DNA of 64,000 nt from Branchiostoma floridae (Eukaryota > Chordata > Leptocardii > Amphioxiformes > Branchiostomatidae). Below the pieces are notes generated by a model. The model was given only the letters and a program-made list of their open reading frames with translations, did no database searches and was not told where the DNA came from. The position numbers and the translations under genes were made by a program. This document shows, one piece after another, positions 6,478-51,181 of this stretch. Where the stretch lies: NCBI RefSeq assembly GCF_000003815.2, contig NC_049986.1:1393476-1457475 (forward strand), in the 5' to 3' direction. Numbering within the stretch: position 1 is the stretch's first letter; each line of letters begins with the position of its first letter.

Positions 6478-7078
6478 TCACATCTGCAGTTTTTTTTCTC
6501 CAGTATGAGTTCTCATATGCCTGTTCAGAGTGCCATGCTGACTAAACTGTTTGCTGCATTCATCACACCTATAGGGCTTCTCACCGGTGTGAGTCCGCAT
6601 GTGACTCTCCAGATGACCAAGCTGTCTGCCGCACTCCTCACATTTGTAAGGTTTCTCACCGGTATGAGTCCTCATATGGCTCTTTAGATTACTCAGCTGA
6701 CTGAACTGTTTGCCGCACTCCTCACAGCTGTAAGGTTTTTCACCAGTGTGAGTCCTCATGTGCCTCTTCAAATAACCCAGCTCACTAAACTGTTTGCTAC
6801 ACTTATCACACTTATACCGTCCTTCAACGGTATGAGTCCGCATATGCCTCTTTAGATGACCCAGCATACAAAACTTCTAATACAATAAATACAATACAAA
6901 ATTCTCGCACCTAAATGGTTTCTCACCGGTGTGAGTCCATATGTGCCTCTTAAAGTCATTCATCTCCTTGTCACCATACTTGTGTGTACGCGGAAGATCT
7001 TCTCCACGTCCATTACTTCCCTTCTCTTTTTGCAGATGAGATACAGTCGGAGTCGCCATGTGGAATAGCTCTCTGACA
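6478..7078 (-). pseudogene. C2H2 zinc-finger protein exon, interrupted by a stop
   Basis: A probable nuclear DNA-binding protein of the gastrula-zinc-finger type. A plausible splice acceptor (CTTTCCTGCAG) precedes 7078 and a start ATG lies at 7059-7057. The N-terminal part reads MATPTVSHLQKEKG, then one degenerate finger (FKRHIWTHTGEKPF). A TAG at 6879-6877 interrupts the next finger inside an AT-rich scrambled stretch that also removes its second cysteine. The frame is unchanged, and fingers continue from 6876: [37 protein letters not shown] (three residues short, lacking the usual F) and CDECSKQF, ending EKKLQM. A 37-nt GT-AG excision across the lesion would shift the frame, so it offers no rescue. 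Either a recent pseudogene or a shortened protein starting at the ATG at 6867. Confidence 0.75.
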
Positions 7079-10027: not shown

Positions 10028-11310
10028 AAGTATTACAACACTACAACCTTACATGTTACAGAGGGACTATCTAACACGTTCACATACCTGACTCCATAAT
10101 CAAAGTACTACACTACAAACTACACAACCTTACATGTTACAGAGGGACAATCTAACACGTTCACATACCTGACTCCATAATCAAAGTACTACACTACAAA
10201 CTACACAACCTTACATGTTACAGAGGGACAATCTAACACGTTCACATACCTGACTCCATAATCAAAGTATTACACTACAAACTACACAACCTTACATGCT
10301 ACAGAGGGACTATCTAACACGTTCACATACCTGACTCCATAATCAAAGTATTGCACTACAAACTACACAACCTTACATGCTACAGAGGGACTATCTAACA
10401 CGTTCACATACCTGACTCCATAATCAAAGTATTACACTACAAACTACACAACCTTACATGCTACAGAGGGACTATCTAACACGTTCACATACCTGACTCC
10501 ATAATCAAAGTATTACACTACAAACTACACAACCTTACATGCTACAGAGGGACTATCTAACACGTTCACATACCTGACTCCATAATCAAAGTATTACACT
10601 ACAAACTATACAACCTTACATGCTACAGAGGGACTATCTAACACGTTCACATACCTGACTCCATAATCAAAGTATTGCACTACAAACTACACAGCCTTAC
10701 ATGCTACAGAGGGACTATCTAACACGTTCACATACCTGACTCCATAATCAAAGTATTGCACTACAAACTACACAACCTTACATGCTACAGAGGGACTATC
10801 TAACACGTTCACATACCTGACTCCATAATCAAAGTATTACACTACAAACTACACAACCGTACATGCTACAGAGGGACTATCTAACACGTTCACATACCTG
10901 ACTCCATAATCAAAGTATTACACTACAAACTACACAACCTTACATGCTACAGAGGGACTATCTAACACGTTCACATACCTGACTCCATAATCAAAGTGTT
11001 ACACTACAAACTACACAACCATACATGCTACAGAGGGACTATCTAACACGTTCACATACCTGACTCCATAATCAAAGTACTACACTACAAACTACACAAC
11101 CTTACATGCTACAGAGGGACTATCTAACACGCTCACATACCTGACTCCATAATCAAAGTACTACACTACAAACTACACAACCTTACATGCTACAGAGGGA
11201 CTATCTAACACGTTCACATACCTGACTCCATAATCAAAGTATTACACTACAAACTACACAACCTTACATGCTACAGAGGGACTATCTAACACGTTCACAT
11301 ACCTGACTCC
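10028..11310. repeat. 81-bp satellite, about 16 copies
   Basis: The block ACATGYTACAGAGGGACTAT recurs at 10051, 10132, 10213 and onward to 11266, exactly 81 bp apart (15 whole periods). Copies differ by only a few bases, so the array is young or homogenised. No open frame spans it. Each unit on the minus strand contains GGAGTCAGGTATGT, a good splice-donor consensus (CAG|GTATGT). The last unit joins unique DNA at that point (11311). Confidence 0.95.
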
Positions 11311-11733
11311 AAGGTCTCGAACTGACTGAGCAGACAAGTGCATCTTCCAAGCTTAACTAACATAACAATGGAATATCTACTTAGCCAATGAGAGGACTGC
11401 TCTTATTCGTCTAAACCAATCAGGGCTAGACTAACGAGTTAACCATGCAAGTCCCACCGCCCGTAAGGTCTAACCTAACAATAACCCTAATTACATACAA
11501 CAGTCAAAGGACACGGACGTTACAGGTAGTTCAAAATCTCCGGGGTGAGTTAGATACTGTTTGGCTCTTTGGATACTTCCCTGCGCCCCGTATACGTAGA
11601 TAAACCTGCTTGGAGACGGATATCTAGGCTTTTTAAAATTCTGTCGGTCAGTGATTTTGAAAGCTCGACCCTAAACATGTTGCTGAGACAAACTGAATAC
11701 AATTTACAACTGCTTCGTTTTGTTTCCTTTTGT
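11311..11733. other. Unique sequence beside the satellite
   Basis: Nothing recognised beyond the donor-like junction at 11305-11311. Confidence 0.4.
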
Positions 11734-15060: not shown

Positions 15061-15712
15061 TATCTTCTAATGCAGGTATGGTTTTCACGGGCGTGGGAAC
15101 TTTTGGAAGCTGGGGATTTAGGGCGCTGTATCTCGAGAACGGATGGTGCGAGTACGACGATTTTTGGTACGTGGGTTGGGGGTGGTGGCTTGACACTCAG
15201 GTTTGATTTTGGGCCTCCTGGCGCTTGAACTTGACATTGCAGGTGACATTTTTGGTGTTTTGGGGGCACTTTTGGCGCTGTGTGTCCGGAACGATGCGCA
15301 CCATTGCAACGATTTTTGGTGCATGGGTGGGAAGTTGTTGCCTGTTGCCTAGGATTGACTTTGGGCCTTGTCGCGTTTGAACTTGACGCGGCAGGTCGAA
15401 TTTTGTGTCCGGGAGGGGTATTTCCGGAGTTATATCTTCTGAACGGTTGGTGCGGGCGCGATGATATTTGGCACATGTGTTGGCGGTGGCTGAATAATTC
15501 TCAATTTTGATTTTGGCACCCTTGGTGCTTGAACTTGACATTCCAGGTTACCTTTTGTGCGGGCACTGCGCGTGCGCTGTATCTCCGGAACGCAAGGTGC
15601 CATCGTGTTGCTATTTTTTTACGTGGGTTGTTGCTGGTGTCTTGGTGGTCAGGTTTGATTTTGGGCCTCCTAGTGCTTGAACTTGATACTGTAGGTTGAC
15701 CCTGTTTTTGTG
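15061..15712. repeat. Degenerate tandem repeat, about 150-bp period
   Basis: Four to five units share the order CTGTATCTCSRGAACG, GATTTTTGGTACGTGGG, GGTTTGATTTTGGGCCTCCT, GCTTGAACTTGACATTGCAG. The last of these starts at 15223, 15374, 15527 and 15674 (spacing 147-153). Long proline/serine-rich frames on the minus strand are a by-product of the repeat. The motif order resembles the repeat at 51370-51640. Confidence 0.8.
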
Positions 15713-17619
15713 TGGTTGGGGCATCCCCCTAATATCTGCTTGGTTTGGTTGGGTTTGGGTTGATTGATAGGTCTTTAAGCTTAGGTGTAGAATCGTCATC
15801 TGTTTTTGCACTGGCTTCTGCCACCTTCAATGTATCAAGTTACTTTGTATCAACAGTGTCTGACCTGCCAGATGATGTATTAGTATCTGTTGTGTATTGG
15901 TTAGGTACAATTTGAGTTTGCTACTTAGTCCGACTTTGTGGTGTTTTGAGAGCTGTGTAGTACTGAGTTTAAAGTTCTGGTACAAGTTCCTTTACCCTGT
16001 GTGGCAATCAGCAGAAGATACAACTTTCTAAAGTGGAGAAAAAAATGTATAGAGCTTGAGTGTTAGAGAAAGGTATGTGTATGATTTTTCCTTCTTGCTG
16101 TTTCTTTGGGTTTGCCATTTCCGTATTGTATGCAGGTAATTTGTAGTTTGGGGGCTAGTCATATTCGCTTGACTTTTGGGCCTGCTTAATCTACAGTACG
16201 GGCAGGGTTAAGTGGCAGAGGCTTTGTTCTGTTTTAAATTTAGTATCGTTTGTTGCATTTTGTCACTGCAAAAATATGATGAAATTGTTTTCCCCCTCTA
16301 AGCAACTGCTCATTGATTTTGTGGGATGTTTGCTGGGTGTTCACTCTGACTACAACAGCTTTCTGAACTTTTTAAAGCAGCAGCAGCTTGTCATCTATGA
16401 ATGGGATTGAAAAGGACATTTTGAATAGTAAATTCTGCTGTTAAATTTGGCTTAGGTACTTCAAGAGATTTAGGTTTTAGTTGGACGGATTGAATAAAAA
16501 TATCATACCACCCTGGGGACTAACTGTTGCTGCTGGATGGGGGCTACCACTATTCATATTGTCTATGGAACTACTGTAAAAATATAATTGGTCAAATTAT
16601 GCAAATAACCTTCCAGTGCCAAGTCATGTAAACGATTTGCCCCTTAAATGCCAAGACGATATCATGTCCAGTACGAGAAAAACATTAAAAAAACTGCAGT
16701 GATTAAATATTCTCATTAATTACGGAAATGGCCTCATTTGCATACGTTCTATTTAATTCTGTACATCTTTGTAAAAGCTAGCCAAACACCAAAAATCATG
16801 AAAATCCGGTATTCCTATCTATAATTATCCTCTTCGATTCTTTTAAATACCCTGCAATTCCAACACTAGTCGCTAGGCAGCCCAAGCTCACGTCTCTTCT
16901 TTCCGAGCGCAAGTCCTATGAATTACCCCCCAAATCGTGACCCTACTTGTTCTGAGCGCGAGATATACAACCTGGAAGTTCCGCTGCAGTACCAAGGGAA
17001 GTTGCTATCGGGCCTAAAATCGAAACACTTCCAGTGTTTGTCACACCCTACCAACACACTAAGTATGAAAACAATCCATCAAGCCGTTCTTGAGTTTTCT
17101 TGTTGACAGACACACAGACGCACAAACGCTAGTGAAAATATAACCTCCATGACATTTCATGGAGGCAATAACTGTTTACATCGACGCTTAAGTTAAAACG
17201 TACGTTAGACTCACAATGCGTCAGTGTAAATTGTTGTCGGATTTTTCAGACGTTAAGTCCACTGCTTTGAATTTAGAAGTCAAGGAGTACAAACACTTAT
17301 AGTACTGCGGAGGATGGTACTCAGGCTATTCAAGTCCATTGTATCCATACACAACTTTATTCTGTTGAACGAAAGCTCATTCATGATGAAGTTTTGATAA
17401 TAAAATTGAAAAGTGTAACAGAATACCCTTAATGTGGTTCTACTACTTTTCGAAAAACAACTGATACAAGTAATCATTTCCCTTCTCCCTAGATAAAGGA
17501 GATCTGTAAAGATGACAAGAAACTGTGTTGTTTTTTCTGACTACTTGTTTTGCCAGGTCACACAGAAACACACCTTTCTAGCTGCAGTCGGGTACATGTA
17601 TGTGAGACTAGGTAGTTTA
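15713..17619. other. Intergenic with dispersed-repeat scraps
   Basis: No gene recognised. At 17100-17170 the run GACAGACACACAGACGCACAAACGCTAG followed by an AACCTCCATGA/TCATGGAGG hairpin resembles the 3' end of a widespread invertebrate dispersed repeat. Octamer-like ATGCAAAT and ATTTGCAT occur at about 16595 and 16735, as in the array at 51.7 kb. Confidence 0.35.
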
Positions 17620-18015
17620 TCCATTCACTGTTGTATTACGCAAAAATCATTACATAAAAACATCCTCACTTGTATTACAAAAAACACAATCACCTATATT
17701 ACACAAAAACCAGAAATCACTTGTGTTTCACACATAAAATACAATCACCTGCATTACACAAAAACTGAAATAACTAGTATTTCACAAAAAAACACAATCA
17801 CCTATATTACACAAAAACACAAATCACTTGTGTTACACAAAAAAACACAAATCACTTGTATTACACGAAAAACACACACAGCTCTTTTGTATTACACAAA
17901 AAAATCACTTGTAGTACACAGACACAAAACAATAGCTTGTATTACACACAAAACACAGTGACTTTCATCATACAAGAGATACCATCACTTGTTGCACAGA
18001 CAAAAACTGACACAC
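17620..18015. repeat. Degenerate tandem repeat (CACTTGTATTACACAAAAA)
   Basis: A unit of roughly 27-35 bp around ATCACTTGTATTACACAAAAA is repeated about ten times with variable A-runs. The inverse complement of one or two units follows the stop codon of C4-like copies B and C (about 29800-29850 and 33373-33423), so the array grew within the 3' flank of copy A after duplication. Confidence 0.75.
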
Positions 18016-18082
18016 ACACTTGTAAGGCCTGACAGTGAAGGGAAATATGCGGACGTTTTCGCCCAGTTGAATAACTGGTTGT

Positions 18083-18578
18083 TCACATGGTGCAGACCAC
18101 ACACGTCAGCTCATAGCCACTGATGTAGGGCCCACAGGGAAGAGAGCCACACTGCGCCTCCACCAGGTACAGCAGGGCTCCGTTGAGATTGGCATTTGAC
18201 CCCGTCCTTAGGTTGGGAGCTCCGTCCACACAGATGAAGTTCTTGTTGCCGTTGTGGTCGTGCTTTTCTGACATCAGGTACCCGCTGTACTCCTTAATCC
18301 AGTCCGTGGGACAGGACAGACGGGCGGGGATCATGACGTGTGCGGACCGAGGCACATGACACACCGAGCAGGGGACGTCATAGTCCTGAGGGTTGGTGAT
18401 GGACCCCATGTTGTCTGTAGTGAAATAGCCATTACTATAACCTCGTACTCTGTCCCGTACATGTAGCTTCGGTGCTGAAAACCATCCACTGGGTTGTTCC
18501 ACTCCACACCTTCCATGGGCAGGCACTGGTAGTCACTTCCTCCTCCATGGTGGGCCCACAAACCACTCCCCACAACAC
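18083..18578 (-). pseudogene. Short-chain collagen C4-like gene, copy A, last exon (frameshifted)
   Basis: Terminal domain of the secreted or membrane-anchored short-chain-collagen-C4-like family: GGGSDYQCLP, YGTEYE, DYDVPCSVC, MIPARLSCPTDWIKEYSGYL, VEAQCGSLPCGPYISGYELT and VVCTM before the TGA at 18085-18083. A splice acceptor TTTCACAG precedes 18578, in the same place as in copies B and C. The exon is 496 nt against 497 in B and C. One base is missing near 18441 (after TACGAGGTT), so the upstream part (to YGTEYEV) and the downstream part (from GYFTTDN) lie in different frames. Unless this is an assembly error the copy is broken. The family's molecular role is not established; conserved cysteines suggest an extracellular disulphide-bonded module. 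Confidence 0.85.
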
Positions 18579-18703
18579 CTGTGAAAGGACAGGAAGGTTC
18601 TGAATATCCACTGCTTCCAGAAAAGAAGTCGAACCCTAAAAGCTTGGGTTGTAGTTCCCAGCAGTCAATTTCAGAATAGTCACTTATTCCCGCTTGCACC
18701 ATT

Positions 18704-18803
18704 NNNNNNNNNNNNNNNNNNNNNNNNNNNNNNNNNNNNNNNNNNNNNNNNNNNNNNNNNNNNNNNNNNNNNNNNNNNNNNNNNNNNNNNNNNNNNNNNN
18801 NNN
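18704..18803. other. Assembly gap (100 N)
   Basis: Exactly 100 N, the convention for a gap of unknown size. It lies in intron 3 of copy A next to a G-run at the end of a MITE, so the homopolymer probably broke the assembly. Confidence 0.95.
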
Positions 18804-19716
18804 GGGGGGGCTTTTTAGGCCCGCGCCAACTTCCATGTCCTTTAACCCCCGAACGGCTTAGGCCAGAGCCCCCAAATTTGGGGGGGTTTCCCAAAAAATT
18901 GGTGGCAACAAATTTGCGAAGGTGGACAAATTTTCCTTTTTTCGGGGTGCCCAGGCAACCGTTTGTTGACCGGCAGTTTTGCCCAAAAACCGTATTTTTG
19001 GTTCTAACAATGTATTTTTCACATTTATTTGCTATATTACTGCTATTTTGTTACATAAATAAAATCTTATATTATTTAGCATATCTTTCATAATTATATA
19101 TGCATAAATTATGCTAATTTGATGACGTCATCAGCCCAAAATCCAAGATGGCGGACCGTATGGCGAGATCAAGAATAGCAAGCTAATTATCCCTTAAAAT
19201 TTGTAACTACCTGGTATTTTTTCTTAAAAAAACATCTAAATGAATAAATTTAGTCTATTTTCATTGCCCTTTGTGATTATTTGTTGCAATAAAAGTATTT
19301 TTAAAATTCAAGGTGGTCGATATAATATGGCGGAGCCCAACTCGTATATTAGATGATTTTGACATCATTGATGTTGCTATTGGCAAAGCAAGTCGTAATA
19401 AACATTAGTATTCTGTTATCTGCACTTGTTGTTACATTTTTGTAGCATAACTTGAAGTTTTCTGAGAATACCCTTTTTCCATGGATCCGGCCAATATAAT
19501 CAAATTGATGACGTCATAATTACGTCATCTTACGTCAACGTAACGTCAAACGTCAAATACGTGTCAGATATTATGTCGACATCATGTCCTGAAAATTTTG
19601 TAGCCCTACGGTAGGTCGTTTAAGAGTTATCGGACTTAGAAGTGGAGGGCCTCAAAAGCCCCCAGTCACCCCCCGGTCCAGGGATGACCAAAAAAGCCCG
19701 GTCTGAATAGGGTTAA
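18804..19716. mobile_element. piggyBac-type MITE, copy 3 (in intron of copy A)
   Basis: The right end reads GTCTGAATAGGG then TTAA (19713-19716). In inverse complement it follows MITE copy 1 (229-873) block by block (ATTATGACGTCATCAATTTG, TTGACGTTTGA and others). It extends past copy 1's deletion point and resembles the last 350 bp of MITE copy 2 (AGTTGGCGCGGGC). Its left terminus is lost in the gap. The opposing duplication arm at 28.5-29.1 kb lacks it, so it inserted after the inverted duplication. Confidence 0.8.
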
Positions 19717-19946
19717 GTCACTTTCTTTCCATATACTGTAATGTTTCGTGTTGCAGTTAGCCCTCAAACAAGAACTTAAGTTAAAAATAAACACTCTCTA
19801 TTGTATTCATGATATCTGCATGTAAGAAGTTGTATGTTTCCAATGTCAGGGTGAGTTAATTGATTGATGGGTGACAGATTGTTGAAAGGACATAAGCTGA
19901 AACGATCTTTTTTACTGTAAGTCGTTCGTGCCTTCTATCTGCCTAC

Positions 19947-20097
19947 CGGAATAGATAGTCTCGGCGTTTTCACCACAGTTCTCCCTCCCCCACCGCACGT
20001 ACACGTGCCCGATGGACTTGTCGGGCGCTCTCCGCTCCCTGTGCGCCCCGCCCGCAGCAGTGCCGTTCTCTCGGTCCTCTGTACCAGGTGAGTCGGT
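19947..20097 (-). CDS. Short-chain collagen C4-like gene, copy A, exon 3
   Basis: 151 nt between an acceptor (CCTGCACAG before 20097) and a donor (CCG|GTAGGC after 19947). It encodes SPGTEDRENGTAAGGAHRE and then KSIGHVYVRWGRENCG...ETIYS, the YVRWGR-x-x-C segment that precedes the terminal domain in this family. It begins in phase 0 and ends with one base of a glycine codon completed by the last exon (Y-S-G-V-V-G-S-G). The length and both phases equal those of copies B and C. No collagen Gly-X-Y repeat is visible here or in nearby introns; exon 2 ends in phase 0, so a direct join to this exon keeps the frame. Confidence 0.75.
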
Positions 20098-20518
20098 CTG
20101 TGCAGGACGGGTAATCTATTTGTAACAGATGGAAAGAAATTGATGTTAACGACTGAAGCAGGTAGACAATACCCCATCTCCTGAACCCAATGATCCGTAA
20201 CAGTACGGGGCGTGCATTTGTTACCATTTTCCCACGGTTGCTTGGTTTTGGTGTTGTGTTGTTGAGAGCTTTGTCAGGTTTCCTTGAGGATAATGATGTT
20301 ACCTTCGGGGTTATTGTTGATTTGATTAACTTGACAAAATTGCCTCACTCGAGGCAGGAACAAACGGCTACGGACGTCCTCTAAAATGGGATGTAAAGCG
20401 CGGAGGTCCCTGAAATTACACCTTGAGCACGTTACAGATCCCGCCACACGAACCGATAAGTCCTTCCCGGTTTGAGTTTCGTGATCAAACTTTCTTACTT
20501 AGCTTGTACTTCACTTTA

Positions 20519-20690
20519 AAAAAAAGTCCCTTTTCTACCGTAGCCGACAGCAACAATGTGCAACGCATCTATCTTTCTGGTCAACACACCTAGTTTTTGC
20601 GCAACACACTTACTTCTTTGTGCTGCACACTTACTTTTTCTGCAGTGCGTTCTAGAGTTCCACACCTCCTTTTCTCAATAGACGGTCCTT
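20519..20690. repeat. Short tandem repeat around CGCAACACACTTACTTTTT, copy 1
   Basis: Several 20-24-bp degenerate units of the type (T/G)GCGCAACACACTTACTT end near CTCAATAGACGGTCCTTAAT. The same module occurs at 27715-27900 (its partner in arm B) and, expanded and in opposite orientation to this copy, at 25740-26035, ending CCATTGAGAAAGGGAGG. Confidence 0.65.
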
Positions 20691-21199
20691 AATCATGCCA
20701 AACAAAGAGCGCATTGAAACCCTTCCGAAGCAGTCGCCTGTCGCGTTTTGAGTACTTTTCTCAATATTATAGTTCTGTAGATTGTGTTTATATATCTTTA
20801 GGGTAGTACTTTGACCGTGAATATTGATATCGATAAAGTTCATAGTTTTTTGTCCTGGTTAGATCATTTTAACATTGCGTTCTGCTGCAATCATAACGCA
20901 TTCCTTCACCTTCGTCACATGCACAGCGACAACAGGGATAATGCAGTCAGTTTACAAATTGCGCCTAAAAGCATTTATTCAAGTGTCTATGATTTGGGAA
21001 ACGGCCAGACGAATCAGACAACATCCGTTGTCTTTTGTCAGTTTATAAGTTGCATCGTTCATTGTACTTTTGGAAACGGCTCCGATACCGTGCAAGCAAT
21101 GTCCTCGGTGCAAGTATGAGGCTTCCTCGGTACATTTCTCCACACACAAGCTACACAAAAACGCAACAAGCCATTCCTACCTAGCCTGACGAACTGTAG

Positions 21200-21638
21200 A
21201 CTCTCACCTCACCTCACCTAGTCCCATCCTCATCAGGAGGGTCGGGGACTATGGTTGTCTCCAGCACAAGTCTTCGCCATTCCTCCCTGTTTTTAGCCGT
21301 CTGGGTGCATTCCGCCAGGGAGCTGCCTGTCCAGTCCCTAATGTCATCACTCCATCTCCTTCGTGGTCTCCCCCTGCTTCTGGTACCGTTGATCTTTCCC
21401 TGCAGTATGTGGGTCGTGATGTTCTGTGCCCTAGTAACATGGCCAAAGTACTGTAACTTCCTCCTTTTCACCAGGTTTAGGAGTGTTCGTGTTATTGCAA
21501 GTTCAGCTAGTACTGAGTCGTTGGTGCGGTGTTCAGTCCAGCTGACCCTGAGCAGTTTCCTGTAGCACTTCATTTCAAAGGCTTGTATCTTCTGAGTGTC
21601 TTTGGCGTGGAGTGTCCAAGCTTCGCAGCCATAGGTCG
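21200..21638 (-). CDS. LINE reverse transcriptase, C-terminal part beyond the insertion
   Basis: Continues the protein of 22991-25231 after the insertion: YGCEAWTLHAKDTQKIQAFE, then RKLLRVSWTEHRTNDSVL, LQYFGHVTRAQNIT, GRPRRRWSDDIRDWTG and the end PDPPDEDGTR with stop at 21214. This is the standard C-terminal region of such elements (W-T-L...M-L-R-I-x-W...G-H-x-x-R...R-G-R-P-R-x-x-W-x-D-D). It is followed by the (GGTGA)n tail. Confidence 0.85.
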
Positions 21639-27104: not shown

Positions 27105-27714
27105 ATGTTTTATTGGAAGGGTCTAGCTGTGTCCTCATTTATGGTGTGTAAAGACGTGGTGCAGATAAAAGGTAACTAGAGTGAAATATAAGCTATTTCA
27201 AATATAATCTGAGTAGAGAGTACTGTTCGTCAGGCTAGGTAGGAATGGCTTGTTGCGTTTCTGTGTAACTTGTTTGTGGAGAAATGTACCGAGGAAGCCT
27301 CATACTTGCACCGAGGACATTGCTTGCACGGTATCGGAGCCGTTTCCAAAAGTACAATGTACAATGTAACTTAAAAACTGACGAAAGACAACGGATGTTG
27401 TCTGATTTGTCTGACCGTGTCCAAAATCATAGACACTTGAATAAATGCTTTTAGGCGCAATTTGTAAACTGACTGCATTATCCCTGTTGTCGCTGTGCAT
27501 GTGACGAAGGTGAAAGAATGCGTTATGATTGCAGCAGAACGCAATGTTAAAATGATCTAACCAGGACAAAAAACTATAACCTTAATCGATATCAATCTAA
27601 ACAGTCAAAGTACTAGCCTAAAGACATATAAACACAATCTATGGCGCCATAATATCAAGAAAAGTACTCAAAACGCGACAGGCGACTGCTTCGGAAAGGT
27701 TTCAATGCGATCTT

Positions 27715-27900
27715 CGTTTGACATGATTAAGGACCGTCTATTGAGAAAAGGAGGCGTGGAACTCTAGAACGCACTGCATAAAAAGTAAGTGTGCAGCACA
27801 AAGAAGTAGGTGTGTTGCGCAGAAACTAAGTGCGTTGACCGGTACCAAAAAAAACTAGGTGTGTTGCACATTTTTGCTGTCGTCTACAGTAGAAAAGGGT
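27715..27900. repeat. Short tandem repeat around GTGTTGCGCAGAAA, copy 3
   Basis: Arm-B partner of 20519-20690, with few units: AAGTAAGTGTGCAGCACAAA, GTAGGTGTGTTGCGCAGAAA, AGTGCGTTGACCGG. Confidence 0.6.
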
Positions 27901-28304
27901 ATTTCTTAAATGTGAAGTACAATCTAAGAAAGAAGGGTTGATCGCGAAACTCAAACCGGGAAAGACTTATCGGGTCGTGTGGCGGGATCTGTAACTTGCT
28001 CAAGTTGTGAATTCAGGGACCTCCGCTTTACATCCCTTTTAGAGGACGTCCCTAGCCGTTTGTTCCTGAGTCGAGTGAGGCAATTGTGTCAAGTTAATTT
28101 CATCGACAGCCCCGAAAGCAACATCATTATCCCCAAGGAAACCTGACAAAGCTCTCAACAACACAACACCAAAACAAAACAATCGTTGGAAAATGGTAAC
28201 AAATTCACGCCCCGTACTGTTAAGGATCATTGGGGTAAGGAGATGGGGTATTGTCTACCTGATTTCTTTCCATCTGTTACAAATAGATTACCCTTCCGGC
28301 ACAG

Positions 28305-28455
28305 GCCGTCTCACCTGGTACAGAGGACCGAGAGAACGGCACTGCTGCGGGCGGGGCGCACAGGGAGTGGAGAGCGCCCGACAAGTCCATCGGGCACGTG
28401 TACGTGCGGTGGGGGAGGGAGAACTGTGGTGAAAACGCCGAGACTATCTATTCCG
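28305..28455 (+). CDS. Short-chain collagen C4-like gene, copy B, penultimate exon
   Basis: 151 nt between the acceptor CCGGCACAG and the donor CCG|GTAAGC. It encodes AVSPGTEDRENGTAAGG, then APDKSIGHVYVRWGRENCG and ETIYS. It differs from copy A exon 3 at only a few bases. No upstream exon with a start codon is found on this strand, because arm B stops short of exons 1-2, so an intact transcript would need an unseen upstream exon or promoter. Confidence 0.75.
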
Positions 28456-28784
28456 GTAAGCAAATAGAAGACACGAACGACTTACAGTAAAAGAATATCG
28501 TTTCAGTTAATGTCGTGTCAACAATTTGTCATCCTTCAATCAATTTACTCACACTTACATTGGAAACATATAACCTTTTACATGCAGATATCATAAATAC
28601 AATAGTGAGTGTTTTTTTTCCGTATACCTTTATTCCCAGTTCAAGTACATATTTCAATCAATGGATATATACATATTTCAATGGATAGATACATATCGGT
28701 TCAGACATAGTGGGTATATACATATTTCAGGTCAAGTACAATGTGTACGTTCATATTTCGGTTCGAGTACAATGGGTGCGTTTA

Positions 28785-28900
28785 TATCTCGGTTCAAGTA
28801 CACTGGGTACCTATTTCAGTTCAAGTACACTGGGTACCTATTTCAGTTCAAGTACAGTGGGTACCTATTTCAGTTCAAGTACACTGGGTACATAATTTAG
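28785..28900 (+). repeat. 27-bp tandem repeat in copy B intron
   Basis: Four units of TTCAAGTACACTGGGTACCT plus ATTTCAG, and more diverged ones upstream back to about 28650. An identical array is at 32358-32473 in copy C. Confidence 0.85.
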
Positions 28901-29156
28901 TTCAAATACAATGGCTACATATACAATCACAATAGTGAGTGTTTACTTATATTATAAGTTCTTGTTTAAGGGCTAATTGCAACAAGAAGCATTACAGTAT
29001 GTGGAAAAGAAATGACTTAAGTATAGATAACAATCGTGCCAAGTTTTATTGGCTATTATTCTGATCTGGACTGCTGGGAACAACAACCCAAGCTTTTTGG
29101 GTTCGACTTCTTTTCTGGAAGCAGTGGATATTCAGAACCATCCTGTCCTTTCACAG

Positions 29157-29653
29157 GTGTTGTGGGGAGTGGTTATTACCACCACCACGGAGGAGGAAGT
29201 GACCACCAGTGCCTGCCCATGGAAGGTGTGGAGTGGAACAACACAGTGGCTGGCTATCAGCACCGTAGCTACATGTACGGGACAGAGTACGAGGTTGAAA
29301 GTGATGGGTATTTCTCTACAGACAACATGGGGTCCATCACCATCCCTGAGGACTATGACGTCCCCTGCTCGGTGTGTCATGTGCTTCGGTCCGCACACGT
29401 CATGATCCCCGCTCGCCTGTCCTGTCCCACGGACTGGATTAAGGAGTACAGCGGGTACCTGATGTCAGAAAAGCACGACCACAACGGCAACAAGAACTTC
29501 ATCTGTGTGGACGGAGCTCCTAATATAAGGGCGGAAACCTCTACCAGTAACAGCGCAGCCCATCTATACCTGGTGGAGGCGTCATGTGGCTCTCTTCCAT
29601 GTGGGCCCTACATCAGTGGCTATGAGCTGACCTGTGTGGTCTGCACCATGTGA
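29157..29653 (+). CDS. Short-chain collagen C4-like gene, copy B, last exon
   Basis: The acceptor TTTCACAG precedes 29157; the exon completes the split Gly codon and encodes 164 residues to TGA (29651-29653). Features are VVGSGYYHHHGGGSDHQCLP, YMYGTEYEVESDGYFSTDN, PEDYDVPCSVCHV, MIPARLSCPTDWIKEYSGYL, NFICVDGAPN and YLVEASCGSLPCGPYISGYE ending VVCTM. The frame is intact, unlike copy A. Conserved cysteines fit an extracellular C4-like terminal module. An open frame continues upstream through the intron end to about 29036, but it has no ATG and begins before the polypyrimidine tract; the spliced exon is preferred. Confidence 0.85.
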
Positions 29654-29857
29654 ACAACCAGTTATTCAACTGGGCGATAACGTCCGCATATTTCCCTTCA
29701 CTATCCGGCCTTACAAGTGTGTTTTTGTTTTTGTCTGATAAAATTCACACTGCTTTTGTGTGTTTACAAGCCATTGTTTTGTGATTGCGATTTTTTTGTG
29801 TCATACGAAGGAGTTGTGTATTTTGTGTAATACAAGTGATCTGTGTCCGTTTTTAGG

Positions 29858-31862
29858 CCTTGAAGGCCATCTATGGGCCTCCTCGTTCTGGAACTTCACC
29901 ACTGCTAGCCGCAGATGGTGCCACCCTACTGACCGACAAGGATAAAATCCTGGCAAGGTGGGCTGAGCACTTCAGAAAGGTCCTAAATCAACCCTCCTCC
30001 ATTAATGATGACATCATCAATGACATGCCTCAAGTACCTGTCAATAGGTCTCTGGATGAACCTCCAACTGAACTGGAGGTCCATCATGCAATTCATCTTC
30101 TCTCAAATGGCAAAGCACCAGGCTCTGACTCCATCCCAGCCGAAGTATACAAGGCAGGGGGACCGGTCTTGGTGGAGAAACTTACAGAGCTATTTCAGTC
30201 CCTGTGGCAGAAAAATGACATCCCGCAGGAATTTAAAGATGCCTCAATTGTACACCTTTACAAAAGGAAAGGTAACAGACAGTCCTGTGATAACCACAGA
30301 GGAATTTCCTTACTCGTCATAGCAGGGAAAATTCTTGCTAGAGTACTCCTGGACCGACTCATCCAGCACATGGATGCACACCTGCCTGAGAGTCAGTGTG
30401 GTTTCCGCAAAGGACGAGGAACAACCGACATGATATTTGCTGCGAGGCAGCTTCAAGAAAAGTGTCAAGAGCAGAACAGGGATCTTTACACAACATTTGT
30501 CGATCTGACAAAAGCTTTCGACAATGTCAATCGAGAGGGACTGTGGAAGATTATGGGAAAGTATGGCTGCCCTAGCAAATTCATCAGCATGGTGCGTCAA
30601 TTCCATGACGGAATGCAGGCCAGAGTGCTGGATGCTGGCGACTCATCCGACGCGTTTGCAGTGACGAATGGAGTCAAGCAGGGCTGCGTTCTCGCCCCCA
30701 CGCTCTTCAGCATGATGTTTACAGCCATGTTGTCAAATGCCTACGCTGACGATGACGACACAAACATCCCAATTCGCTTCCGGACTGATGGCAGGCTCTT
30801 TAACCTGCAGAGGCTCAAGGCAAGGACGAAGGTCCAGGAGACGTCAGTGCGGGACTTCCTTTTCGCGGATGACAGCGCACTGAATGCTGCTTCAGAGGTG
30901 AAGATGCAGCAGAGCATGGACCGTTTCTCCATTGCCTCAGACAACTTTGGTCTGACAATAAGCACAAAGAAGACGGAGGTTCTGTACCAACCTGCACCAC
31001 AAAAGCCCTACTTAGAACCAGTAATCACTGTCAACGGAGAAACTCTGAAAGCAGTTGAAAAGTTCAGGTACCTTGGTAGCACGCTGTCCAGATCTGCCAA
31101 CATAGACAGTGAGGTAGATGCAAGAATTGCCCTGGCAAGCTCCTCCTTCGGCCGGCTACGTGCCTCAGTGTGGGAGAGGAGAGGCATCAGACTGTCCACG
31201 AAGCTGAAAGTGTACAAAGCAGTTGTACTACCGACCTTACTTTACGCCTGCGAGACATGGACTGTCTATGCACGCCATGCCAGAAAACTTCATCGCTTCC
31301 ACATAAACTGTCTGAAAAAGTTGATGAAGATCACATGGCAAGACAAGATACCTGACACAGAAGTTCTCTCCCGGGCCAACATGTGGAGCATCCACACCTT
31401 GCTAAGGAGAGCCCAACTGAGATGGGCGGGCCACATGGTAAGAATGCCAGACACACGCCTACCCAAGAGACTCCTCTATGGTGAGCTTGCAGAAGGCAAG
31501 CGTGCGCAGGGGGGACAGAAAAAGCGATTCAAGGACACGCTAAAAGCCGCTCTAAAGGGCTTCAACATAGACACTCAGTCTTGGGAAGCATCAGCCCTTG
31601 ACCGCTCTGCCTGGCGAAGCCACATCAACAGTGGCGCAACACTTCACGAACAGAACAGAATCGATGATGCTGTTAGAAAGCGAGCGTCCAGAGCCGTTCC
31701 CGCACCATCTACTACTACTTCAGCAACCCACCTGTGTCCTGTCTGTGGCAGAACCTTCAGAGCTCGTATTGGACTCATCAGCCACAGCAGGACTCACAAA
31801 TCCTGACGAGACACGTGATGCCTTGGTCATCGTCGACGCCGACGGACGAACAAGGAAGGAAA
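29858..31862 (+). mobile_element. 5'-truncated non-LTR retrotransposon between 1.57-kb direct repeats
   Basis: Starts abruptly in mid-protein at 29858 and ends in a short 3' UTR with a (GGAA)-like tail (GACGAACAAGGAAGGAAA) at 31862. There is no ordinary short target duplication. Instead the 1,568-bp segment on its left is repeated directly on its right. Confidence 0.9.
29860..31806 (+). CDS. LINE reverse transcriptase (C-terminal two thirds of ORF2)
   Basis: 648 codons, open throughout, stop at 31804-31806. It begins inside the linker after the endonuclease (KAIYGPPRSGTSPLLAADG). Reverse-transcriptase boxes are NGKAPGSDSIPAEVYKAGG, LYKRKGNRQSCDNHRGISLL, SQCGFRKGRGTTDMIF, TFVDLTKAFDNVNREGLW, VTNGVKQGCVLAPTLFSMMF and RDFLFADDSALNAAS (F-A-D-D). 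The C-terminus carries a C2H2-type finger (CPVCGRTFRARIGLISHSRT). The endonuclease and any ORF1 are missing through 5' truncation. The uninterrupted frame says the insertion is recent. Confidence 0.92.
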   Translation: MKAIYGPPRSGTSPLLAADGATLLTDKDKILARWAEHFRKVLNQPSSINDDIINDMPQVPVNRSLDEPPTELEVHHAIHLLSNGKAPGSDSIPAEVYKAGGPVLVEKLTELFQSLWQKNDIPQEFKDASIVHLYKRKGNRQSCDNHRGISLLVIAGKILARVLLDRLIQHMDAHLPESQCGFRKGRGTTDMIFAARQLQEKCQEQNRDLYTTFVDLTKAFDNVNREGLWKIMGKYGCPSKFISMVRQFHDGMQARVLDAGDSSDAFAVTNGVKQGCVLAPTLFSMMFTAMLSNAYADDDDTNIPIRFRTDGRLFNLQRLKARTKVQETSVRDFLFADDSALNAASEVKMQQSMDRFSIASDNFGLTISTKKTEVLYQPAPQKPYLEPVITVNGETLKAVEKFRYLGSTLSRSANIDSEVDARIALASSSFGRLRASVWERRGIRLSTKLKVYKAVVLPTLLYACETWTVYARHARKLHRFHINCLKKLMKITWQDKIPDTEVLSRANMWSIHTLLRRAQLRWAGHMVRMPDTRLPKRLLYGELAEGKRAQGGQKKRFKDTLKAALKGFNIDTQSWEASALDRSAWRSHINSGATLHEQNRIDDAVRKRASRAVPAPSTTTSATHLCPVCGRTFRARIGLISHSRTHKS

Positions 31863-31877
31863 ACCCTTCCGGCACAG

Positions 31878-32028
31878 GCCGTCTCACCTGGTACAGAGGA
31901 CCGAGAGAACGGCACTGCTGCGGGCGGGGCGCACAGGGAGTGGAGAGCGCCCGACAAGTCCATCGGGCACGTGTACGTGCGGTGGGGGAGGGAGAACTGT
32001 GGTGAAAACGCCGAGACTATCTATTCCG
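31878..32028 (+). CDS. Short-chain collagen C4-like gene, copy C, penultimate exon
   Basis: Same 151-nt exon as 28305-28455. Only 15 bp of the original upstream intron survive (ACCCTTCCGGCACAG); the bases before it are the purine-rich retrotransposon tail, so the acceptor lacks its normal polypyrimidine tract and branch region and may splice poorly. A frame open from the retrotransposon side runs into this exon without a stop but has no supporting start. Confidence 0.65.
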
Positions 32029-32357
32029 GTAAGCAAATAGAAGACACGAACGACTTACAGTAAAAGAATATCGTTTCAGTTAATGTCGTGTCAACAATTT
32101 GTCATCCTTCAATCAATTTACTCACACTTACATTGGAAACATATAACCTTTTACATGCAGATATCATAAATACAATAGTGAGTGTTTTTTTTCCGTATAC
32201 CTTTATTCCCAGTTCAAGTACATATTTCAATCAATGGATATATACATATTTCAATGGATAGATACATATCGGTTCAGACATAGTGGGTATATACATATTT
32301 CAGGTCAAGTACAATGTGTACGTTCATATTTCGGTTCGAGTACAATGGGTGCGTTTA

Positions 32358-32473
32358 TATCTCGGTTCAAGTACACTGGGTACCTATTTCAGTTCAAGTA
32401 CACTGGGTACCTATTTCAGTTCAAGTACAGTGGGTACCTATTTCAGTTCAAGTACACTGGGTACATAATTTAG
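32358..32473 (+). repeat. 27-bp tandem repeat in copy C intron
   Basis: Same units as 28785-28900, with the same unit number, consistent with a very recent block duplication. Confidence 0.85.
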
Positions 32474-32729
32474 TTCAAATACAATGGCTACATATACAAT
32501 CACAATAGTGAGTGTTTACTTATATTATAAGTTCTTGTTTAAGGGCTAATTGCAACAAGAAGCATTACAGTATGTGGAAAAGAAATGACTTAAGTATAGA
32601 TAACAATCGTGCCAAGTTTTATTGGCTATTATTCTGATCTGGACTGCTGGGAACAACAACCCAAGCTTTTTGGGTTCGACTTCTTTTCTGGAAGCAGTGG
32701 ATATTCAGAACCATCCTGTCCTTTCACAG

Positions 32730-33226
32730 GTGTTGTGGGGAGTGGTTATTACCACCACCACGGAGGAGGAAGTGACCACCAGTGCCTGCCCATGGAAGGT
32801 GTGGAGTGGAACAACACAGTGGCTGGCTATCAGCACCGTAGCTACATGTACGGGACAGAGTACGAGGTTGAAAGTGATGGGTATTTCTCTACAGACAACA
32901 TGGGGTCCATCACCATCCCTGAGGACTATGACGTCCCCTGCTCGGTGTGTCATGTGCTTCGGTCCGCACACGTCATGATCCCCGCTCGCCTGTCCTGTCC
33001 CACGGACTGGATTAAGGAGTACAGCGGGTACCTGATGTCAGAAAAGCACGACCACAACGGCAACAAGAACTTCATCTGTGTGGACGGAGCTCCTAATATA
33101 AGGGCGGAAACCTCTACCAGTAACAGCGCAGCCCATCTATACCTGGTGGAGGCGTCATGTGGCTCTCTTCCATGTGGGCCCTACATCAGTGGCTATGAGC
33201 TGACCTGTGTGGTCTGCACCATGTGA
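32730..33226 (+). CDS. Short-chain collagen C4-like gene, copy C, last exon
   Basis: Encodes the same protein as 29157-29653, with the same splice acceptor and TGA at 33224-33226. Identity over the whole exon, against clear divergence from copy A, dates this duplication well after the inverted one. Whether it is expressed is unknown: like copy B it has no membrane-anchor exons upstream. Confidence 0.8.
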
Positions 33227-33559
33227 ACAACCAGTTATTCAACTGGGCGATAACGTCCGCATATTTCCCTTCACTATCCGGCCTTACAAGTGTGTTTTTG
33301 TTTTTGTCTGATAAAATTCACACTGCTTTTGTGTGTTTACAAGCCATTGTTTTGTGATTGCGATTTTTTTGTGTCATACGAAGGAGTTGTGTATTTTGTG
33401 TAATACAAGTGATCTGTGTCCGTTTTTAGGACAAGTAACTTGCGAACCCACAGCGATGGTAGTTCATAGTTACCGGTGTAAAGTTACATGCAAATTCTAC
33501 ATCAGGGGTAATAGGACGACACAAATAGCGAACAGAAGCCACGAACCAACGTTTGTACG

Positions 33560-34390
33560 TGTATTTTTTTCAGTCACTGATACAAAGTTGATGCTTCGTT
33601 GTAGAATTTGATGACTGGACTGACATCTAGTATACTGGTGATCGGACTTTTGAAAAAGGCATTTACATATATTCGTAATCTCTTTGCGTGTAGATTCCCT
33701 TAATCACTGTAGAGACTGGAAAGTTCAATTTGCTGTTTAGTAAGTTGTGTTAGGGACTAGTGGTAGTTTTGACACGTGGAAGCTTTCTGCCAAATCTACC
33801 ATTGAAAAACCAGCGAAAATGTTGTGTACTTTAATATTTTTACATTTTCTTCATTGATAGAATAGTAGATCACAATGTTATTATAGTTGGTTGGTTAGAA
33901 TAATGTGTGCACCTCTCTAGAGTTAAGATATTTTAGTAGCTACATGTACACGATATGGACTGGAACTGTTACGGTTCCGGTTTTTTATTAGATAAGTATG
34001 TAACATGAACGCTTGTCTGTCATAGATTGGTACAATTGACCTCCCTCGTAAGATATTGACGTTGAAACCGCAGGTTTGTTGGTACTGTGATGTTAGATTC
34101 CATTGACCTCCATTCTATCCCTCTCTGTATTATATATATTTACAGGTGGACATGAAAAAGGCTGTTGAGACCGTTAATTTGTATGTAAATACGACACCTT
34201 CCGTCTAATCGACCTTCTAGCAACTGGCCATGGAATTTTTTCTAGAGATTTATTATTTTGTATACATGCCGTACTTTCAAATTCAACCCATCTCTGTCGA
34301 TGTTAAAATTTAGCTGTAATAGAAAATGTGACATGATATTACCTGTATGATCAACGGAATATCTGACATATCTTCAATAAAAGTATTATG
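33560..34390 (+). repeat. Zinc-finger-gene 3' UTR family, copy 4 (plus strand)
   Basis: Follows the minus strand of 5655-6477 landmark by landmark: GTAGAATTTGATGACTGG, TAGATTCCCTTAATCACTG, GTTCAATTTGCTGTTTAG, GGACTGGAACTGTTACGG and a final TTCAATAAAAGTATTATGCC poly(A) signal at about 34373. No finger exon precedes it; the C4-like direct repeat abuts at 33430. Confidence 0.65.
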
Positions 34391-34469
34391 CCTCAATGGT
34401 ATGATTGGAAGTGTCGCACATGTTTGTACGCTAGTTAACATTAAAGAAAGAAGCTGCTTACAGACGTTT

Positions 34470-35066
34470 TCCTTGAATTGGGATGCGGTGTGCGGAAACA
34501 AGGCAACTCTTGCCTGCACACCTGCCGCGGGAACCTTCCCTTCCTAATCTCATCAAATGGGCTGACCAATGGGCGAGCGCCACGCCTGGGCACAGGTCAG
34601 GTCAGGAAATAGCCATGCAACATTGGACTGTTCCAAATCACCCCTGCGCAAAAATGGAACATCCTCTTAACAGTACATTATCCCCCAAGGGGACTGGTAT
34701 TGTGAATTGATTCCAGGTAAAACAGAGCTTGCTTCTATTTTTCAGAAAATGACAATAATCACACCTTCCATTCAGAAAATTCGTTTTTATCAGGAAATAG
34801 CCGGATGACCCGAGGGCCAACTACGCCGTATGAACGCATCAGAGATCGGTGACCGCGTGCACGGGAGCCGGGCTCCATTCCGATGCTTCCTCCTTTTCTA
34901 TTTCGTTACTTAAGTCGCTCGAATTGCGGACGGAGAGAATACAGAAAACAACAACATTAGAATGTTGATACCAAAACAAAACAAAAGTACTAACCGGAGC
35001 AAGGCGCCAACAGCGGTGTTCGCGAGCGAGGCGGGTGGATGGACGCAAATGGTTCATAAACACCAT
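34470..35066 (+). repeat. Dispersed repeat E, copy 2 (interrupted by a SINE-like insertion)
   Basis: Inverse counterpart of 13380-14210: ACACCTGCCGCGGGAACCTT, CAAATGGGCTGACCAATGGG, then, after the insertion, GTATGAACGCATCAGAGATC, TTACTTAAGTCGCTC and CAACAGCGGTGTTCGCG. With the preceding 3' UTR-like block it forms a two-part unit also present at 13.4-14.6 kb. Confidence 0.75.
34615..34789 (+). mobile_element. SINE-like insertion, copy 1, with 13-bp target duplication
   Basis: A 175-bp segment (ATGCAACATTGGACTGTTCC...CCATTCAGAAAAT...) bounded by TCAGGAAATAGCC at 34602-34614 and 34790-34802. Removing it restores repeat E. No inverted ends, so a 13-bp duplication fits LINE-driven retroposition. 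A nearly identical copy is at 37191. A tRNA-like promoter is not convincing. Confidence 0.8.
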
Positions 35067-35460: not shown

Positions 35461-36350
35461 TGCCATTGTGGAAAAACTACACTTTACTTAACCAACACTA
35501 AGATAATTGGACTTACCCCAANNNNNNNNNNNNNNNNNNNNNNNNNNNNNNNNNNNNNNNNNNNNNNNNNNNNNNNNNNNNNNNNNNNNNNNNNNNNNNN
35601 NNNNNNNNNNNNNNNNNNNNNNNNNNNNNNNNNNNNNNNNNNNNNNNNNNNNNNNNNNNNNNNNNNNNNNNNNNNNNNNNNNNNNNNNNNNNNNNNNNNN
35701 NNNNNNNNNNNNNNNNNNNNNNNNNNNNNNNNNNNNNNNNNNNNNNNNNNNNNNNNNNNNNNNNNNNNNNNNNNNNNNNNNNNNNNNNNNNNNNNNNNNN
35801 NNNNNNNNNNNNNNNNNNNNNNNNNNNNNNNNNNNNNNNNNNNNNNNNNNNNNNNNNNNNNNNNNNNNNNNNNNNNNNNNNNNNNNNNNNNNNNNNNNNN
35901 NNNNNNNNNNNNNNNNNNNNNNNNNNNNNNNNNNNNNNNNNNNNNNNNNNNNNNNNNNNNNNNNNNNNNNNNNNNNNNNNNNNNNNNNNNNNNNNNNNNN
36001 NNNNNNNNNNNNNNNNNNNNNNNNNNNNNNNNNNNNNNNNNNNNNNNNNNNNNNNNNNNNNNNNNNNNNNNNNNNNNNNNNNNNNNNNNNNNNNNNNNNN
36101 NNNNNNNNNNNNNNNNNNNNNNNNNNNNNNNNNNNNNNNNNNNNNNNNNNNNNNNNNNNNNNNNNNNNNNNNNNNNNNNCGTTTTAGGGAGCTGGGACCC
36201 GGAGGTCCTTCTCCTAGCTCTAAGTCGTGGGGATCAGTGATAATGGTCTCCGCGCGATGGAACAGGGTACGAATGACGCTTAGTTTGTGCTCTAGCGAAT
36301 GGTTGGAAGACAAGTTCACGTCCTGATCAGTGTGGGTTTTCTTTCTGTAA
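35461..36350 (-). mobile_element. Penelope-like element 3' part, left copy (minus strand)
   Basis: On the minus strand 36350-36180 encodes LYRKKTHTDQDVNLSSNHSL followed by EHKLSVIRTLFHRAETI, which fits the end of a Penelope-type reverse transcriptase (typically Y-R-K-x-T-h-T-D-x-Y-L-N...S-H-H-P...H-K-x-S-V-I-R-T-L). The downstream GIY-YIG part would fall in the 658-N gap. The 3' end (35521-35461) matches the right copy's 3' end inverted (GGTAAGTCC...TTAGTGTTGGTTAAGTAAAG). Confidence 0.65.
35522..36179. other. Assembly gap (658 N)
   Basis: Sized gap lying between the arms of an inverted repeat. Open frames that cross it are meaningless. Confidence 0.95.
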
Positions 36351-36829: not shown

Positions 36830-37190
36830 TTTTATTTCAGTATGTCTTTGACATATTACTAGCCTGTTGGATAACAAATTCCCCATTACATGTTTTGGGG
36901 AACATTTTTTATCTTATATTCCTGAAGCTAAAATAATTGAAAGAAAACTAAATGTTGTTGTATTTCGAAGAAACAGCCTGTCAAGCACATGTACATGTAT
37001 GCTGTGACTCATTTAGTGCAATAGATGACAGGTTCCATAAATAAAAAATAAAAAATAACTTTAAAAATAGTATGAGAGAAACTAAGTGTGTTTCCTTTTT
37101 TTCTACGCTTTCCATGAAGACTTTAAAAAACTAGAAAGGCCGACATTTGCTTAAGAGCAAATACAGCATATTTCAGCCATACCTCTTCCC
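36830..37190. other. Intergenic, nothing recognised
   Basis: AT-rich, with no coding frame. Confidence 0.4.
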
Positions 37191-37357
37191 ATGCAACATT
37201 GGACTGTTCCAAATCACCCCTGCGCAAAAATGGAACATCCTCTTAACAGTACATTATCCCCCAAGGGGACTGGTATTGTGAATTGATTCCAGGTAAAACA
37301 GAGCTGGCTTCTATTTTTCAGAAAATGACAATAATCACACCTTCCATTCAGAAAATT
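37191..37357 (+). mobile_element. SINE-like element, copy 2
   Basis: Nearly identical to 34615-34789 from ATGCAACATTGGACTG to CCATTCAGAAAAT; I noticed one substitution (GAGCTGG against GAGCTTG). No clear target duplication here. Confidence 0.75.
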
Positions 37358-51081: not shown

Positions 51082-51181
51082 NNNNNNNNNNNNNNNNNNN
51101 NNNNNNNNNNNNNNNNNNNNNNNNNNNNNNNNNNNNNNNNNNNNNNNNNNNNNNNNNNNNNNNNNNNNNNNNNNNNNNNNN
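51082..51181. other. Assembly gap (100 N)
   Basis: Exactly 100 N, gap of unknown size. Confidence 0.95.

Follow-up and report, generated by a model that had tools for sequence, protein, structure and literature searches.

The stretch of DNA analysed here (the window, 64,000 nucleotides of the lancelet Branchiostoma floridae) contains the two final exons of a gene, a LINE copy, the same two exons again, and the tail of a member of a C2H2 zinc-finger gene or pseudogene family (Table 1). Both exon pairs lie in a 1,568-bp block, designated X, so that the order at the locus is left - X - LINE - X - right. The two X copies are identical, with 0 mismatches, and constitute the longest exact run at the offset of 3,573. 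Matches of 100% to X in its own assembly were found in these two places only, among the 40 of 240 candidates that were scored. The N-gaps in the window (18704-18803, 35522-36179, 51082-51181 and 60355-60454) all fall outside the X copies and the LINE.

These results confirm the observation made in the preliminary description of the locus. It had reported direct repeats of this length and offset with every compared block identical, and the doubling of the two final exons of a gene that it named C4-like; both exons are present in each X copy, as judged by tblastn and reading frames. It had also claimed that a short target duplication is absent: we found no shorter duplication around the LINE, the 1,568-bp block serving as the target-site duplication (TSD) instead. 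The bounds of the LINE had to be revised in part. Its 5' truncation stands, given full-length relatives of ~4.1 kb in the same genome; the 3' end, however, had been placed at 31862 with a tail of the LINE's own, whereas the LINE proper stops at 31854 and is followed by eight purines that are absent at this position in its closest relatives (one sibling copy, L049, likewise has 8 extra purines there). Similarly, the repeat does abut the LINE, but the claim that it ends exactly at the first LINE base is subject to a one-base ambiguity, since base 29857 (G) occurs alike in the repeat end, in the LINE and in the right flank, and could count as LINE.

Table 1. Coordinates of features at the locus (positions in the window)
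Feature	Position	Strand	Basis or remark
Inverted arm of the same locus	17845..21211	-	One X copy, in pieces; no LINE of this family
Inferred first-strand nick between 28289 and 28290, minus strand ...GGAAGGGT/AATCTATT...	28276..28303	-	T/A step as in 4 of 5 siblings with readable target repeats
X copy 1, in-place copy joined to the ancestral left flank, 2 final exons of gene	28290..29857	+	Exact run; inverted arm; exon-like frames
Penultimate exon (approximate), copy 1	28296..28457	+	tblastn
Last exon (approximate) with stop, copy 1	29072..29653	+	tblastn; open frames
Open frame, 649 aa, ends at stop	29857..31806	+	RVT_1, E 3.9e-31
5'-truncated LINE, ~2.0 kb of 4.1-kb element	29858..31854	+	99.5% over 2000 bp vs C15 copy L045
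Eight extra purines GAAGGAAA between the common 3' terminus of the LINE and X copy 2	31855..31862	+	
X copy 2, identical to copy 1	31863..33430	+	Exact run
Penultimate exon (approximate), copy 2	31869..32030	+	tblastn
Last exon (approximate) with stop, copy 2	32645..33226	+	tblastn; open frames
C2H2 zinc-finger gene or pseudogene family tail: end of last finger and 3' region, right edge approximate	33434..34500	+	

Upstream of the exons of X copy 2, LINE sequence replaces the original splice-acceptor region, which may affect their splicing; this copy is probably an orphan exon pair behind an intact gene end. The window also contains a 169-bp repeat pair at 34613/37189. We weighed and rejected the idea that this was another giant target duplication, because the partner-side alignment skips 34614 to 34790, so that the pair looks like a small inserted repeat.

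The LINE family and its target repeats

The window LINE is truncated inside its reading frame and keeps the reverse transcriptase (RT) part; the 649-aa frame has a terminal C2H2-like motif (CPVCGRTF...H...H), recognised by pattern only. The full-length copy L045 (3264-7364 in its locus) has an open frame of 1098 aa with matches to RVT_1 (1.1e-30), Exo_endo_phos (3.7e-11) and Exo_endo_phos_2 (4.4e-07). The family is thus an APE-type non-LTR retrotransposon, with RT and an apurinic-like endonuclease in one ORF. The element may belong to the RTE-like clade, which is characterised by a single ORF, a very short 3' UTR, a short-repeat tail and no poly(A); on the plus strand only one open frame reaches 150 aa or more, the stop-to-terminus distance is 48 bp, and poly(A) is absent. 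A megablast search of the LINE against plasmids gave no match and is uninformative.

The last 300 bp of the LINE had 16 matches in the same genome, i.e., the window copy and 15 siblings, 14 of which were examined together for termini and target repeats. The 3' terminus, ...ACAA(G), is common to within 1-2 bases to 13 of these 14, L056 aligning to an earlier point only; L052, outside the 14, ends in ...GAACA. With sibling lengths from 86 bp to 4.1 kb, the family shows a fixed 3' terminus and variable 5' truncation.

Target repeats were sought within 80 bp of each end and, for long repeats, by self-comparison of six 10-kb loci. They were readable in five of the 14 siblings: ~10-12 bp in L045, 42-44 bp in L046, 11 bp in L048, 13 bp with one gap in L050, and 10 bp in L049, the last known only modulo the period of the ~105-bp tandem array in which that copy sits. 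The family range of 10-44 bp thus comes from few copies. No target repeat was found within 80 bp of L047, which has an assembly gap ~400 bases away (L047:2327-4033), and the other eight siblings, all short (<=216 bp), showed no convincing one. A T/A step at the first nick is shared by the window copy and four of the five siblings with readable target repeats, L050 being different. These five ordinary copies therefore resemble the window LINE in the 3' terminus and, in four of five, in the nick step, and some are 5'-truncated, as it is, or inverted; the difference lies in the target repeat, ~10-44 bp versus 1,568 bp.

Junctions of the repeat and the inverted arm

On the nicked strand, the 3' junction of the LINE falls at a T/AA step; TT|A accounts for 1.4% of positions across 28-34 kb. 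Judged by its sequence, this is a normal insertion junction for the family. A direct repeat on both sides of the LINE, with one copy in the inverted arm, is the arrangement expected of target-primed insertion with a TSD, the arm corresponding to the empty site. Alignment of the left flank with the inverted arm continues without a break into the initial part of X (27210-28619 versus 21211-19784, 89.9%); the remaining X is present there in separate pieces, interrupted by foreign sequence and a gap of 100 N, and the match stops at 29846, 11 bases before the X end. Because the arm runs unbroken across the left junction, the continuity between flank and repeat is ancestral, as the preliminary description had held. 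Taken together with the T/A-type 3' junction, this suggests that target-primed insertion started at 28289/28290, with the 1,568-bp block replacing the usual TSD.

At the other end of the locus, the multi-copy zinc-finger tail is severed from its coding part within ~0-4 bp of the X end. The right junction is therefore itself a breakpoint; nothing at the end of the inverted arm matches the sequence from 33431 on, and the arm thus gives neither polarity nor date for this junction. On the partner side there are a multi-copy element of 1.56 kb and, at 14604-13790, a stretch resembling the zinc-finger tail; these were considered as part of the same duplication and rejected, since their identity is 72-78%, versus 85.5-89.9% for the arm.

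Origin of the duplication

We consider it probable that a single LINE retrotransposition event created the 1,568-bp target duplication. The sequence support consists of the LINE 3' end at a family-like site, the truncation inside the frame, and the identical 1,568 bp on both flanks. The geometry proposed in the preliminary description, with nicks 1.57 kb apart or an insertion coupled to a tandem duplication, is supported by the junctions, the family-like 3' junction and the left polarity. The LINE endonuclease would have nicked the minus strand at 28289/28290, the LINE RNA would have been copied from the nicked 3' end, and the unfinished cDNA would have been joined, through an overlap of ~1 bp, to the other strand at a break 1,568 bp downstream. 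That break may have arisen as a second, remote nick in the same chromatid, or it may have been the end of a broken sister chromatid; either route would yield the same product, the observed order of repeats, and would place two copied exons behind the intact gene end. It should be noted that the X block is ~36 times the longest readable target repeat of the siblings, which counts against this explanation, as does the coincidence of the X end (to ~0-4 bp) with the edge of the zinc-finger tail, which a simple second nick does not explain. Given 0 differences in 1,568 bp, the duplication is younger than ~160,000 generations at B. floridae rates, compared to a mean allele coalescence of ~3.4 million; the insertion is thus young and should still be polymorphic.

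A false join in the assembly, the alternative raised in the preliminary description, is a real possibility, though it appears rather unlikely. If one haplotype read left-X-right and the other left-LINE-X-right, a contig ending at X could have been set before a contig starting in the LINE, producing a false X-LINE join. X is longer than a Sanger read, and contig ends at repeat edges would account both for X stopping at the multi-copy zinc-finger tail and for the mid-frame start of the LINE. Moreover, the probable source assembly, B. floridae v2, is described as built from ~tenfold Sanger reads, with haplotypes assembled apart and then merged by HaploMerger2 (PMC7269912). However, X copies from two haplotypes would be expected to differ at ~62 of 1,568 sites, if the lancelet pi of 0.0397, a synonymous-site estimate (PMC12862219), is applied; none of the sites differ, and this zero divergence makes a mis-join less likely. 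The X-LINE join also contains no N and has an overlap of 1 bp only, and a third X copy at or near 100% was not found among the same 40 of 240 candidates. As a yardstick of allelic divergence we also considered C213 versus C16 and discarded it; at 86.8%, with many gaps, they are probably paralogues.

Breakage-replication/fusion with LINE capture would be a special case of the single retrotransposition event, one in which the right junction stems from the same event; we regard it as unlikely. A broken X end would have been replicated, one sister end joining the LINE cDNA primed at 28289/28290 and the other the zinc-finger tail, so that X-LINE and X-right would be two breakpoints from one ancestral DNA end. 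Both junctions do involve one and the same X end, identically oriented, and a truncated gene tail forms the right flank. Such a process, with its "adjacent parallel breakpoints", has been described on the basis of L1 events as experimental evidence (PMC12807874), and there, too, a single DNA end gives rise to two junctions on the same side; the breakpoint pairs of the L1 example, however, are 429 and 2,059 bp apart, versus ~0 bp here, and the X-right junction may be far older. That one germline step of this kind made both junctions, the LINE duplicating exons and at the same time rewiring the neighbourhood via the zinc-finger tail, is unlikely. An ordinary insertion with a later duplication, in which LINE-bearing and LINE-free homologues exchange unequally or by template switching from the X end into the LINE, would give the same order and is consistent with the 1-bp junction overlap; we hold it to be improbable, since a second event precisely at the X end is required, and X copies from different homologues should differ unless homogenised afterwards. 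Insertion of the LINE into the exact junction of a pre-existing X tandem duplication would produce an identical final order, yet one exact base would have to be struck; it is very improbable indeed, and we rejected it because of the nick context. The T/AA context includes bases of the left flank, which places the nick in an empty site, whereas at an X-X junction the nick would read T/CC and not the family-like T/A.

Relation to known systems and implications

Human L1 has previously been reported to make target duplications of kilobase size, so that the kind of event proposed here as a single retrotransposition is known. In human cells deficient in NER, the reported L1 TSDs measure between 5 bp and 5.3 kb (median, 1,495 bp), and in complemented cells they still reach 1.6 kb (PMC5223499). 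The window copy, with a TSD of 1,568 bp and T/AA at the first nick, has a TSD of >100 bp at an endonuclease-type site, as in those cells, i.e., a kilobase direct repeat around a LINE. The differences are that the reported system comprises cultured human cells and an engineered L1 with mostly poly(A) tails, whereas the window has a non-poly(A) lancelet LINE, apparently inserted in the germline, with no repair defect known. L1 is also reported to bridge sister chromatids into tandem duplications in cancer (PMC7058536). The likeness lies in the priming of cDNA upstream of the sister break to which it is joined, in the position of the LINE at the junction of the duplication, and in an endonuclease motif at the LINE 3' end; those duplications, however, are somatic and of megabase scale, compared to 1.57 kb here.

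The published examples of kilobase target duplications, and of tandem duplications made by LINEs, that we found in the literature come from cultured human cells and tumours, and giant duplications are seldom seen in nature. We regard the insertion in the window as a probable natural germline example from outside the vertebrates. The authors of the NER study note that exons may be duplicated by large TSDs, and that recombination should cut the life span of such insertions (PMC5223499). If true, a natural, young case in which exons were copied would show that LINEs are capable of directly duplicating coding segments in the germline, with no need for old copies to recombine. If the insertion is still segregating, carriers and non-carriers could be compared directly, and the case bears on whether insertions with long repeats are short-lived through recombination of these repeats.

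Repeat, exons and insert

Comparison of the window with itself revealed 1,568 consecutive identical bases at an offset of 3,573, as the preliminary description had claimed for the two sides of the LINE, and a gap scan of the window found no gap inside it. Chance is not an issue as the source of this identity. We searched the species' own assembly (513,431,437 bases, 431 contigs; the window lies at C8:1393476-1457475) with the block; among the 40 of 240 candidates that were scored, it occurred at 100% only in the two places in the window, followed by the inverted partner copy in the same window (main pieces 86% and 92%) and by relatives on C16 and C213 (up to 86%), with dispersed repeat matches of up to 93% for one internal stretch.

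Each copy of the repeat includes the last two exons of a gene, and in both copies the last exon has an open frame up to its stop. Copy 1 retains the sequence upstream of it; in copy 2, the LINE end takes the place of the splice-acceptor region, and this exon pair is therefore probably an orphan. The last exon showed no Pfam family at E <= 0.001. The gene name "C4-like" is the label of the preliminary description; some genes of lancelets carry the annotation short-chain collagen C4-like.

The copies are separated by 2,005 bases, the LINE, with an open frame of 649 aa in which Pfam found RVT_1 and which matches in sequence solved chains of L1 ORF2p and R2, among others. A search of the assembly with its last 300 bases gave 16 hits (E <= 1e-20), one of them the window copy; the other 15, taken with their flanks, served as the sibling set. 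The sibling L045 (C15) is 99.5% identical to the window LINE across 2,000 bases and reaches 5' to a 4.1-kb element, which has a full-length match in L049 (C6) and a large-part match in L048 (C12); L046 (C7) is complete, with an inversion of the 5' part, the twin priming pattern. The full-length open frame includes both endonuclease and RT domains, and because these 4.1-kb relatives have the longer frame, the window copy is 5'-truncated within the ORF. The family 3' terminus, ...ACAA(G), is common to 13 of the 14 siblings compared, and the fifteenth, L052, ends in ...GAACA. In the window this terminus, at 31854, is followed by GAAGGAAA and then by the second repeat copy; L049 likewise has eight extra purines there. 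The single ORF, the 3' UTR of 48 bases and the absence of poly(A) lead us to guess at an RTE-like clade.

Coordinates of the features in the window and in two sibling loci
Feature	Coordinates	Strand	Remarks
Repeat, copy 1	28290-29857		
5'-truncated LINE	29858-31854		
Extra purines	31855-31862		
Extra purines into copy 2	31854-31870		GGAAGGAAAACCCTTCC, perfect 6-bp inverted repeat spanning the joint of LINE and target; may be chance
Repeat, copy 2	31863-33430		
Right flank	33431-34600		zinc-finger gene or pseudogene tail without its fingers; cut coincides with the repeat end
Inverted arm (partner copy)	17845-21211	-	stands in for the empty site
C2H2 zinc-finger coding repeats	6505-6865	-	84-bp units; tail homologous to the right flank
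Tandem array	10043-11311		81-bp unit, 15.7 copies; probably recently expanded, because units match at 98%
1.56-kb element, partner-arm side	15070-16627		at least 36 genomic matches >1.1 kb at 90-98% among 40 of 4146 candidates scored; a recently active family
169-bp repeat pair	34613-34781, 37189-37357		99% identical; compared with the partner side, the first resembles a small insertion
L046 element	3098-7204 of L046		longest target repeat among readable siblings
L049 sibling LINE	937-7515 of L049		within tandem array, units ~105 bp

Target site and junctions

Target repeats were readable in 5 of the 14 siblings compared: 10-12 bp (L045), 42-44 bp (L046), 11 bp (L048), 13 bp including one gap, aligned by eye about an exact 8-bp core (L050), and 10 bp or 10 bp plus a multiple of the ~105-bp period for L049, since this element lies inside the array. 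On the nicked strand, the first-strand nick is T/A in four of these five, L050 being different; the context in the window is GGGT/AATC, to which left-flank bases contribute. The inverted arm aligns without a break across the left flank into the repeat (27210-28619 versus 21211-19784, 89.9%), in agreement with the earlier proposal that the left junction is ancestral. The remaining arm repeat aligns in pieces, its intron being interrupted by a 100-N gap and by foreign sequence of ~0.9 kb, and the alignment stops at 29846, in a minisatellite that continues in the arm. The unbroken arm and the nick context together indicate that priming of the LINE took place at 28289/28290, where the target resembled the empty site. 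The repeat takes the role of the target duplication, at ~36 times the longest readable sibling value.

From ~33434 onward, the right flank consists of a zinc-finger tail, from a family of C2H2 genes or pseudogenes, with 18 matches outside the window (17 in C8:0.15-3.38 Mb, one on C18). Of these 18, five were compared, and all five have finger-like remains just upstream of the equivalent base, with a complete C2H2 pattern in only two (L060, L062) and several that look broken. The window has the repeat at that place, which makes the repeat-right junction a breakpoint too, within ~0-4 bp of the transition from copy 1 to the LINE. The preliminary description missed that the right flank is not neutral.

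Origin of the arrangement and age

If the repeat-right junction is older, the second break of the LINE fell on the same place by chance, which we put, after the fact, at roughly 9 positions in 1,568; at the end of the arm, alignment found no counterpart of the right flank. If it is not older, both junctions derive from a single broken end, like those of breakage-replication/fusion as outlined in PMC12807874. An assembly mis-join is another possible source of the repeat-LINE-repeat order, because the B. floridae v2 assembly, as described in PMC7269912, was made with ARACHNE from Sanger reads of one diploid animal, its haplotypes being assembled apart and then merged with HaploMerger2. However, given a pi of 0.0397 at synonymous sites and a heterozygosity of 3.2-4.2% (values from PMC12862219), ~62 differences between haplotypes are expected over the repeat and 0 were seen, nor does the join contain any N or overlap by more than 1 bp; conversely, an overlap assembler may blur small differences between repeat copies that exceed the read length.

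If the insertion is real, its 95% upper age is ~162,000 generations by the B. floridae rate, against 3.4 million generations for the mean coalescence time (a share of ~5%), and the insertion allele should therefore be polymorphic. The same rate places the common ancestor of the window LINE and L045 ~424,000 generations back.

Mechanism and precedent

In the model outlined in PMC2666801, a target duplication forms if the second-strand break lies downstream of where the first strand was nicked; such a break 1,568 bp away would yield a duplication of the observed size. PMC5223499 reports target duplications of 5 bp to 5.3 kb (median 1,495 bp) in NER-deficient human cells, where 47 of 58 inserts had a duplication >100 bp, which in 18 of the 47 exceeded 1 kb, of 2 bp to 1.6 kb (median 14 bp) in complemented cells, and, for HeLa cells, a share of duplications >100 bp never above 10%; the use of a distant, unrelated nick is proposed there, and such insertions are mentioned as able to duplicate exons and as short-lived. 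In a human long-read survey (PMC12350158), the target duplications of canonical mobile-element insertions measure 21 bp at the median, and joining of L1 cDNA to a sister-chromatid break is described as a source of tandem duplications in tumours (PMC7058536). Our search of open-licence papers, in which lancelets and target duplication were little queried together, found no lancelet case. The event in the window is a member of this already known kind, i.e., large LINE target duplications or tandem duplications.
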